Origin: Paucibacter sp. B2R-40
Lineage (GTDB): Bacteria; Pseudomonadota; Gammaproteobacteria; Burkholderiales; Burkholderiaceae_C
Length of the DNA: 64,000 bases
Direction of reading: 5' to 3'
Assembly (NCBI RefSeq): GCF_025717555.1
Contig: NZ_JAJIRP010000009.1
Location: forward strand, 186,001-250,000
The notes below the pieces were generated by a model. The model did not search any database. It saw only the letters and a list, made by a program, of their open reading frames with translations, and was not told the origin of the DNA. Numbering within the stretch: position 1 is the stretch's first letter; each line of letters opens with the position of its first letter. The position numbers and the translations under genes are program-made. Of the stretch, positions 14,121-42,534 are shown piece after piece.

Positions 14121-14131
14121 TTGTTGTTCGG

Positions 14132-14148
14132 CCGCCGCAATGCGGCGG
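14132..14148 (+). repeat. GC-rich hairpin after tldD
   Basis: CCGCCGCA and TGCGGCGG form an 8-base inverted repeat around a single base, 11 bases after the tldD stop. No T-run follows, so it may pause or weakly terminate tldD transcription rather than act as a full intrinsic terminator. Confidence 0.45.
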
Positions 14149-14179
14149 TTCCGCAATATTCGCGTGCTACATTCAAGCC

Positions 14180-14251
14180 ATGCCTTTCCAGAAGTTTTAC
14201 TCTTTCTTTTGGTTCTCAAACCGCACCGGCGGCAGAGAGGCGAACGCGTAA
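14180..14251 (+). CDS. Aromatic-rich leader peptide of the DAHP synthase attenuator
   Basis: Short reading frame of 23 codons from ATG 14180 to TAA 14249-14251. It begins MPFQKFYSFFWF, so seven of residues 3-12 are Phe, Tyr or Trp. It lies just upstream of an intrinsic terminator and 97 bases before the DAHP synthase gene, the first enzyme of aromatic amino-acid synthesis. This is the classic layout of a ribosome-mediated attenuator such as pheL or trpL: stalling at aromatic codons when charged tRNA is scarce would prevent the terminator. The ribosome-binding site is weak (AAG at 14175-14177). The peptide itself probably has no other function. Confidence 0.8.
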   Translation: MPFQKFYSFFWFSNRTGGREANA

Positions 14252-14311
14252 ACCAAAAACGCAAATCAAATTTCTGAAAACCGCCGGGTTCACCCCCGGC
14301 GGTTTTTTTTT
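14226..14311 (+). promoter_or_regulatory. Attenuator: antiterminator arm and intrinsic terminator before DAHP synthase
   Basis: The terminator is a perfect 12-base stem: AAAACCGCCGGG (14277-14288) pairs with CCCGGCGGTTTT (14295-14306) around TTCACC, and T continues to 14311. An alternative pairing exists: CCGGCGG at 14226-14232, inside the leader peptide codons 16-18, is complementary to CCGCCGG at 14281-14287, the terminator's 5' arm. A ribosome stalled at the aromatic codons (14186-14215) would leave 14226-14232 free to form this antiterminator. The terminator lies upstream of, not after, the synthase gene, so it controls entry. The switching is inferred from the layout. Confidence 0.78.
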
Positions 14312-14347
14312 GCTCATCGAATCAGAATCAGAAAGACCGCCCACGAT

Positions 14348-15475
14348 ATGAACGCCAAGAATGTGAAAGCTGAGGCCGCCGCCGAACGTTGGTACTCGCC
14401 GCAGGACAAAACCAGCGAGACCGATGACCAGCGCATCGTCGACGTCACGCCGCTGCCGCCGCCGGAACACCTGATCCGCTTCTTCCCGATTCGCGGCACG
14501 CCGATGGAACCGCTGATTGCCGGCACCCGCGCCAAGATTCGCAAGATCATGCAGCGCAAGGATGACCGCTTGCTGGTCATCATCGGCCCCTGCTCCATTC
14601 ACGACCCGGCCGCTGCGATCGAGTACGCCCGCAAGCTGCAGGTGCAGCGCGAGAAATATGCCGACACTTTGGAAATCGTCATGCGCGTCTACTTCGAGAA
14701 GCCGCGCACGACGGTGGGCTGGAAGGGCCTGATCAATGACCCCTATCTGGACGAGAGCTACCGCATCGACGAGGGTCTGCGCATCGCTCGCCAGTTGTTG
14801 CTGGAGATCAACCGACTGGGCATGCCGGCCGGCTCCGAGTTCCTCGATGTGATTTCGCCGCAATACATTGGCGACCTGATTTCCTGGGGCGCGATCGGCG
14901 CGCGCACGACCGAAAGCCAGGTGCACCGCGAATTGGCCTCGGGCCTGTCCGCACCGATCGGCTTCAAGAACGGCACCGACGGCAATATCAAGATCGCAAC
15001 CGATGCGATCCAGGCAGCTGCGCGCCCGCACCACTTTTTGTCGGTGCACAAGAACGGTCAGGTTGCGATCGTCGAGACCAAGGGCAATAAGGACTGCCAT
15101 GTGATTCTGCGCGGTGGACGGGCGCCCAATTACGACGCCGAGAACGTGGCTGCAGCCTGCAAGGATCTGGCCGCTTCCAAGCTCGACACCACGTTGATGG
15201 TCGACTGCTCGCATGCCAATAGCTCCAAGCAGCATCTGCGACAGGTGGATGTGGCGGCCGATGTGGCGGCGCAGATCAAGGCGGGCGGTAAGAGCATCTT
15301 CGGCGTGATGGTGGAAAGCCATTTGATCGACGGCGCGCAGAAGTTCACCCCCGGCAAGGATGACGCGAAGACGTTGGAGTACGGCAAGAGCATCACCGAT
15401 GCCTGCTTGGGCTGGGATGATTCGCTCAAGGTCCTGGAATTGCTCAGCGATGCGGTAAAAGCGGCGCGCGGCTGA
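14348..15475 (+). CDS. aroG: 3-deoxy-7-phosphoheptulonate (DAHP) synthase, class I
   Basis: Condenses phosphoenolpyruvate with erythrose 4-phosphate, the first step of the shikimate pathway. The protein has 375 residues, in the AroF/AroG/AroH (type I alpha) family. Visible are GPCSIHD with the metal-binding cysteine (C82), RVYFEKPRTTVGWKGLINDP, the GARTTESQVHRELASGL loop, GFKNGTDG, and the histidine in DCSHANS. The symbol aroG is by family; which aromatic acid inhibits it cannot be read safely. An aromatic-rich leader peptide and terminator precede it, which suggests transcription attenuation by aromatic amino-acid supply. aroK and aroB lie 47 kb away in this window. Confidence 0.95.
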   Translation: MNAKNVKAEAAAERWYSPQDKTSETDDQRIVDVTPLPPPEHLIRFFPIRGTPMEPLIAGTRAKIRKIMQRKDDRLLVIIGPCSIHDPAAAIEYARKLQVQREKYADTLEIVMRVYFEKPRTTVGWKGLINDPYLDESYRIDEGLRIARQLLLEINRLGMPAGSEFLDVISPQYIGDLISWGAIGARTTESQVHRELASGLSAPIGFKNGTDGNIKIATDAIQAAARPHHFLSVHKNGQVAIVETKGNKDCHVILRGGRAPNYDAENVAAACKDLAASKLDTTLMVDCSHANSSKQHLRQVDVAADVAAQIKAGGKSIFGVMVESHLIDGAQKFTPGKDDAKTLEYGKSITDACLGWDDSLKVLELLSDAVKAARG

Positions 15476-42346: not shown

Positions 42347-42401
42347 ATGGCGGGCTCTTGGCGGGCCCTTGGCGGGCAATTGGTGCGCAATTGGCGGGCA
42401 A
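42347..42401. repeat. Five degenerate 11-bp tandem repeats in the ilvA leader
   Basis: Units ATGGCGGGCTC, TTGGCGGGCCC, TTGGCGGGCAA, TTGGTGCGCAA and TTGGCGGGCAA follow each other without gaps, with consensus TTGGCGGGCAA. The last unit touches the A-run of the terminator at 42400-42432. Confidence 0.85.
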
Positions 42402-42432
42402 AAAAAAGCCCAAGCTTTTGCAAGCTCGGGCT
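42400..42432 (-). terminator. Intrinsic terminator upstream of ilvA
   Basis: On the minus strand AGCCCGAGCTT pairs with AAGCTTGGGCT (11 pairs, one G-U) around a GCAA tetraloop, followed by eight T. No minus-strand gene ends here: the nearest upstream gene is on the plus strand. It must therefore act within the ilvA leader or end a small RNA. Confidence 0.85.
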
Positions 42433-42433
42433 G

Positions 42434-42534
42434 AATCCACCATGGAGGCGGTGGAGGAGACAATCGGTGCGAAGCAAGCGCTTGGCTGTAAATCAACTGA
42501 AATACCGCTTTAAGACCACTTGCTCATTTCGCTT
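42434..42534 (-). ncRNA. Possible leader RNA or small RNA upstream of ilvA
   Basis: A transcript from the promoter at 42541-42570 ending at the terminator near 42400 would be about 135 bases long; the body before the terminator is given here. No known RNA family is recognised. Only the promoter and terminator support it. Confidence 0.35.

Follow-up and report, generated by a model that had tools for sequence, protein, structure and literature searches.

A probable ribosome-mediated attenuator with an aromatic leader peptide upstream of a DAHP synthase gene in Burkholderiales

The stretch between tldD and a DAHP synthase gene of Paucibacter sp. B2R-40 very probably serves as a ribosome-mediated transcription attenuator of the latter gene. 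DAHP synthase is the entry to aromatic synthesis, and E. coli adjusts this step to three end products by means of three isoenzymes together with TyrR and TrpR. In the present case, the sensing of several end products appears to be combined in one RNA element, which occurs in many families of the order and in four Gammaproteobacteria beyond it. A sequence-only reading had proposed attenuation of the DAHP synthase from an aromatic frame, a terminator and a competing pairing. Our comparison supports this interpretation through the conserved aromatic ORF, the conserved terminator, two-sided base changes, and a covariance model that takes no account of genes and yet lands before DAHP synthase genes.

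The window, i.e. the whole 64-kb stretch that was analysed, covers positions 186,001 to 250,000 of contig NZ_JAJIRP010000009.1 in a genome of 5.6 Mb. Upstream of the element lies tldD (stop codon 14118-14120). The downstream gene was recognized as a DAHP synthase by TIGR00034 (525.6 bits versus a cut-off of 173.2). As the narrower AroG model NF006723 gave 539.3 bits and thus stayed under its cut-off of 568, we use aroG as a shorthand for this gene. The closest named relative found by AroG is a Roseateles MAG with 97% identity (L059). All features are listed in Table 1.

Table 1. Features of the aroG leader region, in coordinates of the window
Feature	Position	Strand	Basis
Extended -10 element TGCTACATT	14165-14173 (hexamer 14168-14173)	+	TGnTAnnnT at fixed spacing across genera
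Predicted transcription start, A of leader ATG	14180	+	Inferred from promoter placement
Leader ORF, 23 codons, MPFQKFYSFFWFSNRTGGREANA	14180-14251	+	Translation, genus comparison, chance controls
Putative control codons F9, F10, W11, F12	14204-14215	+	Geometry
Region 1: TTCTC 14213-14217 (last Phe codon and Ser) and CCGC 14221-14224	14213-14224	+	5' side of 1:2 hairpin
Region 2 core CCGGCGG, within ORF codons 16-18	14226-14232	+	Complementarity, covariation
Region 2 alternatives: antiterminator with region 3, or GCGG (14229-14232) with region 1
GAGAG, 3' side of outer 1:2 stem	14235-14239	+	70/71 identical at each of five A1 columns
Region 3, terminator 5' arm, core CCGCCGG 14281-14287	14277-14288	+	Conserved terminator
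Region 4, terminator 3' arm 14295-14306 with T-run 14303-14311	14295-14311	+	Conserved terminator
aroG, class I DAHP synthase (3-deoxy-7-phosphoheptulonate synthase), putative regulated gene	14348-15475	+	TIGR00034

The aromatic leader ORF

The 23-codon frame singled out by the sequence-only reading is present as described, with aromatic residues at positions 3, 6, 7, 9, 10, 11 and 12 (seven of residues 3-12). When the window's 300-nt upstream stretch was subjected to dinucleotide shuffling, only 1 of 5000 shuffles contained an ATG-started ORF of this density (7 aromatics in 12 residues). For the family we took the best aroG match from one genome per genus, which yielded 118 matched genera; 109 of them, including that of the window, were examined, and nine whose matches were only partial or ranked low were set aside (G035, G056, G059, G084, G090, G099, G109, G128, G131). 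An ATG ORF with at least 4 aromatics in 12 residues precedes aroG in all 109 genera, starting about 130-260 nt ahead of the matched gene start. The best density ranges from 4 to 9 aromatics per 12 and amounts to at least 6 in 101/109, a value reached by 7 of 2180 dinucleotide shuffles and by 0/109 on the reverse strand. The second DAHP synthase of the same genome (58% identity, L002) has no such ORF upstream, and at 12 second-paralogue loci of the genus the best upstream ATG ORF holds at most 3 aromatics in 12. By the shuffle, reverse-strand and second-paralogue controls, a chance ORF is ruled out.

The commonest leader type resembles FYFAYFWFSHRPGGGEASA, Burkholderia and its relatives carry the type MSAKFYFYFFWYLRPLADREG, and an Oxalobacteraceae-type leader reads FFTGYFYFSDSNPKAVE. 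Phe is encoded by TTT in 62% of the cases in the 109 leaders versus 4% in 29 aroG genes; a slow codon or an unstructured, U-rich RNA are possible reasons for this excess.

Relatives without the frame, which the sequence-only reading counted against attenuation, do occur, but are clearly outnumbered by those that retain it. The ORF is missing in 3 of 18 same-genus genomes (L016, L018, L019), where a terminator-like repeat remains. In L018 and L019 this repeat contains a 171-base stretch flanked by an imperfect inverted repeat (CCTAGGGATGCTC ... GAGCATCCCTGG), whose appearance suggests a small mobile insertion. Among 80 loci from named genomes, 17 had no ATG ORF with at least 4 aromatics in 12; these include L086, with almost no upstream sequence, and L103, which has a GTG-started leader instead. 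All three Polynucleobacter loci lack an aromatic ATG ORF. Two Cupriavidus copies that are 74-76% identical to the window's AroG have no leader ORF, whereas the Cupriavidus leader precedes a copy of 62% identity (L131). Therefore, leader and gene orthology are not always coupled.

Competing helices and their distribution

The perfect 12-bp terminator noticed earlier was likewise recovered, with the arms AAAACCGCCGGG and CCCGGCGGTTTT flanking a loop at 14289-14294. A crude script detected a terminator at 158 of 186 ORF-bearing loci, leaving 28 without detection, and in 92/109 family genera. CCGCCGG in region 3 and CCGGCGG in region 4, with the T-run, make up the terminator. Region 2 repeats the sequence of region 4, and its core is the exact complement of that of region 3, which bears out the competing 7-bp pairing of the sequence-only reading.

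Region 2 is located in the ORF directly behind the aromatic cluster and tracks the changes in region 3. Thus, CCGCCGG is matched by CCGGCGG (peptide TGG/PGG), CCGTCGG by CCGACGG (peptide TDG; L185, L191, L192, L195, L198, L210) and CCGCCAG by CTGGCGG (peptide PLAD, Burkholderia). At the CCGTCGG/CCGACGG loci region 4 keeps its G, and the terminator resorts to G-U pairing. In L216, regions 2 and 3 match over 13 nt with wobbles. Behind the aromatic cluster, a stretch able to pair with the terminator 5' arm over 7 bp or more, G-U pairs included, is present at 113 of 144 strong-terminator loci; at the other 31 the complement is shorter. Leaders also fit their own terminators better than foreign ones (mean score 20.9 versus 18.7; 0/5000 permutations, 132 loci). 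By eye, TTTTGG in the window's ORF could also pair with a CCAAAA downstream of the ORF, but this pairing was discarded, as visual inspection of the 71-genus alignment described below showed no conserved partner.

Aligning the tldD-aroG gap across Burkholderiales, as the sequence-only reading had suggested, revealed the conserved aromatic ORF and terminator as well as two-sided changes in the competing pairing. We used three alignments, namely A1 (71 genera), A3 (all 85 available strong-terminator sequences) and the order-wide A2 (54/55 sources), which was fitted to the 1:2 and 3:4 helices and not to 2:3. On A1, which was obtained from the 85 sequences by removing 14 by hand, several of them with poor 2:3 pairing, 90.1% of the 2:3 cells are paired, 3 of 7 pairs show two-sided changes (reached by 2/500 shuffles) and 8 cells are two-sided (0/500). 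On A3 the values are 87.5%, 3 pairs (13/500) and 9 cells (0/500), and the number of pair types is no higher than in shuffles (113/500). Since the CCGACGG leaders may represent one clade, these changes may reflect few independent events. A2 contains 16 two-sided 2:3 cells (0/500 shuffles), with pair types no better than shuffled (330/500). Taken with the complementarity, the two-sided changes support a predicted 2:3 antiterminator that would be exclusive with the terminator. The terminator helix 3:4 itself shows two-sided changes in 5 of 10 pairs order-wide, on an alignment fitted to this structure.

While ORF, terminator and 2:3 pairing of the attenuator layout stood, the sequence-only reading had overlooked a putative protector helix 1:2, as well as the predicted leaderless start treated below. 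In the 1:2 hairpin, TTCTC of the last Phe-Ser codons pairs with GAGAG beyond region 2. Inside the family it is nearly invariant, with 94.6% of cells paired and 3 two-sided cells (2/500 shuffles), and its covariation score is no better than that of shuffles (110/500). Other families have, for example, ATCCC/GGGAG or TTTCC/GGAAG in its place. Order-wide, 4 of 5 pairs of the outer stem show two-sided changes on an alignment fitted to this structure, and the outermost pair forms in 67% of cells only. The stability of the hairpin is barely above that of shuffles (mean z -0.28, 171 loci). Codon choice offers an alignment-free sign of 1:2 pairing: Phe is TTT in 92/98 cases two codons ahead of the last aromatic codon and TTC in 90/98 at that codon, and the Ser that follows is TCN in 91/93.

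Two covariance models were built, R1 from A1 and R2 from A2, the latter taking no account of genes. R1 found one copy with an opposite-strand shadow in the window's own genome and matches in 104/399 genomes of the order at E<=0.01 (59/159 genera); all 29 loci fetched from other genomes precede aroG and have an aromatic uORF. R2 matched 128/399 order genomes at E<=0.01 (76/159 genera) and 104/399 at E<=1e-4. It further matched 23/369 class genomes, of which four, from Gammaproteobacteria outside the order (L250-L253), are DAHP leaders such as MNAARASFYFWYYFPKPLAEEGLRSP. Because strict filters miss weak cases, these shares are lower bounds.

We checked 128 R2 places, of which 124 belong to other families of the order and 4 stem from the class-level search, against the positions of DAHP synthase genes; 17 of the checked genomes had contributed sequences to R2 itself. 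The match lies directly upstream of a DAHP synthase gene at 81/81 places with E<=1e-7, 96/97 with E<=1e-4 and 97/128 with E<=0.01, where gene positions are best matches, with lower-ranking paralogues partly omitted and none seen by eye beside an R2 match. The 96 places at E<=1e-4 are located 13-145 nt upstream on the same strand. Matches above E 1e-4 were not accepted as members, as only 1/31 is next to a DAHP synthase gene and most of those inspected resemble ordinary terminators.

Proposed leader start, switching and sensed amino acids

Promoter and Shine-Dalgarno (SD) counts were made on 108 genera, L177 being dropped because its longest ORF begins upstream. The extended -10 motif TGnTAnnnT, whose hexamer begins at -15 to -12 relative to the leader ATG, occurs in 96/108 genera; all other scanned positions together gave 4 instances. 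The base at -1 is C or T in 99/108. An SD-like tetramer was found in 0/108 leaders versus 77/101 estimated aroG starts. From the fixed spacing and the absent SD we infer that the leader ORF of the window's family is probably read from a leaderless mRNA beginning on the ATG. The proposal is limited to this family, since leaders of the Burkholderia and Oxalobacteraceae types have, by eye, TATAAA/TATAGT-like boxes farther upstream. Between tldD and the leader promoter, a G+C-rich inverted repeat without T-run is present at 14130-14150 (GGCCGCCGCAATGCGGCGGTT).

From this arrangement one can propose how the switch would operate. With charged Phe- and Trp-tRNA (in most relatives also Tyr-tRNA), the ribosome would pass the last aromatic codon and cover region 2 while the polymerase makes regions 3 and 4, so that the 3:4 terminator would halt transcription before aroG; after release of the ribosome, region 1 could hold region 2. 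When charged aromatic tRNA is scarce, the ribosome would stall once one of the final aromatic codons occupies its A site; it would sit on region 1 with its front edge just short of region 2. Region 2 would then pair with region 3, thereby blocking the terminator and allowing transcription of aroG.

The spacing of the elements is in line with this model. If the first base of the final aromatic codon is taken as the reference, region 2 begins at +10 to +13 nt at 94/144 loci; its end is most often (48/144) 17 nt ahead of the stop codon. A ribosome covers A-17 to A+12, with the front edge at about A site +12. By this footprint, region 2 would be covered from right after the last aromatic codon to about the stop codon, and a stall more than about five codons before the end would free region 1 for 1:2 pairing. 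The effective codons would thus be about the last five.

Equilibrium folding with ribosome masks discriminated poorly between the states. Over 104 loci, the mean probability of 2:3 before region 4 exists was 0.58 for the free RNA, 0.71 with a stalled ribosome and 0.55 with the ribosome at the stop codon (0.97, 1.00 and 0.83 in the window), and 3:4 in the full leader reached 0.93-0.94 in every state. At single loci the 2:3 probability even shifts the wrong way, as at L113 (1.00 free versus 0.21 stalled). We therefore assume that the switch is decided kinetically.

The sequence-only reading expected a stall at any of three aromatic codons to relieve termination. This would fit most relatives: of the 109 genera, 74 have all three residues within the last five codons; taken singly, Phe is present there in 108, Trp in 98 and Tyr in 83. 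In the window itself these codons are S-F-F-W-F; Tyr7 lies one codon outside, and Phe and Trp are therefore the best-supported signals there. Whole leaders contain all three residues in 100/109 genera. We regard it as evenly balanced whether the leaderless leader mRNA functions as a three-input OR gate, in which a shortage of Phe-, Tyr- or Trp-tRNA would each relieve termination, with the sensed set fixed by a codon ruler. This ruler would be the stretch of about five codons in which the ribosome covers region 1 and not region 2. If the ruler is real, lineages could retune the sensed amino acids by shifting residues. The OR gate, if real, would belong to a lineage whose one examined member, the window's own genome, has no Trp repressor TrpR by a search that was positive in E. 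coli and B. subtilis, and shows two matches to a TyrR-type HTH, both below the cut-off.

A serious though unlikely alternative keeps the attenuator as described but lets it sense essentially one amino acid (Phe, or Phe and Trp), with the other aromatic residues being incidental or related to the RNA. Phe strongly predominates, with a mean of 4.4 per leader versus 1.6 for Tyr and 0.96 for Trp. Trp is absent from leaders of the Oxalobacteraceae type (e.g. L128, L135, L136), and the place of Tyr in the window fits this alternative, too. In addition, transcription downstream of the aroR leader of C. glutamicum, which contains Phe-Tyr-Phe, responds to limitation of Phe and not of Tyr, according to the available part of a review (PMC11802643). 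On the other hand, Trp directly precedes the last aromatic residue in 89/109 genera, Tyr is found three residues before it in 77/109, and all three residues occur together in nearly every leader. Moreover, the Trp codon TGG is not part of any paired region and thus has no obvious function at the RNA level.

It is rather improbable that the aromatic nascent chain arrests the ribosome in response to a free metabolite, as in TnaC, with the same RNA switch downstream. The strong conservation of the core FYFAYFWFS inside the family would suit such an arrest peptide. Yet, depending on the position, one aromatic residue replaces another (F/Y at -7 to -3) and the core differs between families (FYFYFFWYLRPLAD, FFTGYFYFSDSNPKAVE, FYFWYYFPKPLAEEG), as expected of codons and not of a tunnel-binding sequence, and the C-terminal part of the leader follows the RNA pairing. 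More doubtful still is a general sensor of translation stress, in which any slowing of the leader ribosome, e.g. by antibiotics, would induce aroG; another bacterial uORF has been reported as such a sensor in the part of the source at hand (PMC12121999), but the strict aromatic bias and the nature of the downstream enzyme would be left unexplained. The least credible reading, a plain tldD terminator beside a functionless ORF, could appeal to the frequency of intergenic terminators and to the three same-genus genomes that keep a terminator-like repeat without the ORF, but it is ruled out by the ORF conservation with its chance controls, the 2:3 covariation, the promoter placed at the ORF, and the fact that R2 also matches ahead of DAHP synthase genes beyond the family, Gammaproteobacteria included.

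Relation to known attenuators and further observations

Every component of the proposed ribosome-mediated attenuator is known; what appears to be undescribed is the order-wide combination of three kinds of aromatic codons, a probable leaderless start and a region 2 inside the ORF. Two systems described or proposed before DAHP synthase genes are the aroR-aroF attenuator of C. glutamicum, reportedly treated by Neshat et al. in 2014, and a uORF of Acholeplasma, a member of another phylum. As far as the accessible portions of the reports go, peptide attenuation of the DAHP synthase has been described for aroR-aroF, with a short leader peptide containing Phe/Tyr codons (PMC11802643, PMC4046766). 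In contrast to the present element, aroR is actinobacterial and, judged by its description only, has the Phe-Tyr-Phe motif and the response to Phe mentioned above. For Acholeplasma aroF, peptide attenuation is a proposal: uORFC-13-1 is a Phe-coding U-run uORF just before a terminator upstream of the DAHP synthase gene, which is similar to our case. By the excerpted description, on which alone our comparison is based, it covers Acholeplasma and environmental sequences only (24 representatives, at least one Phe codon; PMC8632094).

The pheL/pheA attenuator (Rfam RF01859, Phe_leader) has the same layout, and its model spans 14179-14312 weakly (E 0.2). With 23.5 bits versus a gathering score of 55, membership of the window is rejected; the best of ten relatives, L138, scores 39.9 bits. 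Unlike pheL/pheA, the present element precedes a different gene and holds Tyr and Trp codons as well. The sRNA ncS54 (Burkholderia sRNA 54) was considered as a known transcript of the leader and dismissed, giving a weak match only in the window and no match at E<=1 in ten loci, four of which are Burkholderia, Caballeronia, Paraburkholderia and Cupriavidus.

E. coli trpL likewise arranges mutually exclusive 1:2, 2:3 and 3:4 helices around a leader ORF. However, it starts from a Shine-Dalgarno sequence and has its stop codon between regions 1 and 2, whereas the present ORF contains region 2, carries codons for several amino acids and probably has a leaderless start. The latter trait recalls trpL of Sinorhizobium meliloti, whose attenuator RNA begins at the ATG of the leader ORF; in the sections available, this system differs by coding for Trp only, by its gene trpE, and by a released RNA and peptide that act in trans (PMC7298713, PMC10117765).

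The sequence-only reading was right to call peptide attenuation of this step a different solution from that of E. coli, although the C. glutamicum case is a precedent. E. coli employs TyrR/TrpR control plus attenuators of pheA and trpE, as stated in the part of the source consulted (PMC11878033). The available main text of a broad attenuator survey contains neither 'aroG' nor 'aroF' (PMC2965389), and no attenuators of Phe or Tyr operons are reported for Actinobacteria in the accessible part of another study (PMC1262725). In the open-access literature, which leaves room for a report elsewhere in print, we found no aroG leader element of Burkholderiales. Multi-amino-acid attenuation could be studied on this element as a model: in its roughly one hundred natural variants, the aromatic codons are displaced against the pairing regions. 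The element would also add a likely leaderless attenuator in Burkholderiales and a practical handle for aromatic-product strains.

Several minor observations were made at related loci. In family f23 (G157, G286, G381, G438, G466), tandem DAHP synthase genes, 41-107 nt apart by match coordinates, directly follow the leader. In two genomes of one genus in f28, another family of the order (L277, L279), a similar aromatic leader (MVTFSVVYNVYFYWYRSSGG...) with a terminator is followed by the gene for a protein of about 204 aa other than a DAHP synthase; L277 is the sole place at E<=1e-4 without a DAHP synthase gene directly downstream, and its protein has no Pfam family over the cut-off. In L280 (f22), a GNAT acetyltransferase gene is preceded by a leader with four consecutive Tyr (MSILWNCSSLPFCRYYYYPVSK...) and by a terminator. 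The class-level match L261 has a Phe/Tyr-rich leader (MTVYPRNFYYFSSRFFFGRS...) before ORFs that by eye resemble chorismate mutase/prephenate dehydratase, perhaps a pheA attenuator. MAG contigs assigned to Planctomycetota, Verrucomicrobiia and Gemmataceae (L101, L104, L105) encode an AroG of 66-70% identity with no R1 match, which would be due to transfer or mis-binning. One DAHP synthase match (G339:C11:791693-792763) contains an in-frame TGA. Finally, the sole Rfam match at gathering score in the window is the Betaproteobacteria toxic small RNA RF02278 at 42400-42462 on the minus strand (61.3 bits versus 50).
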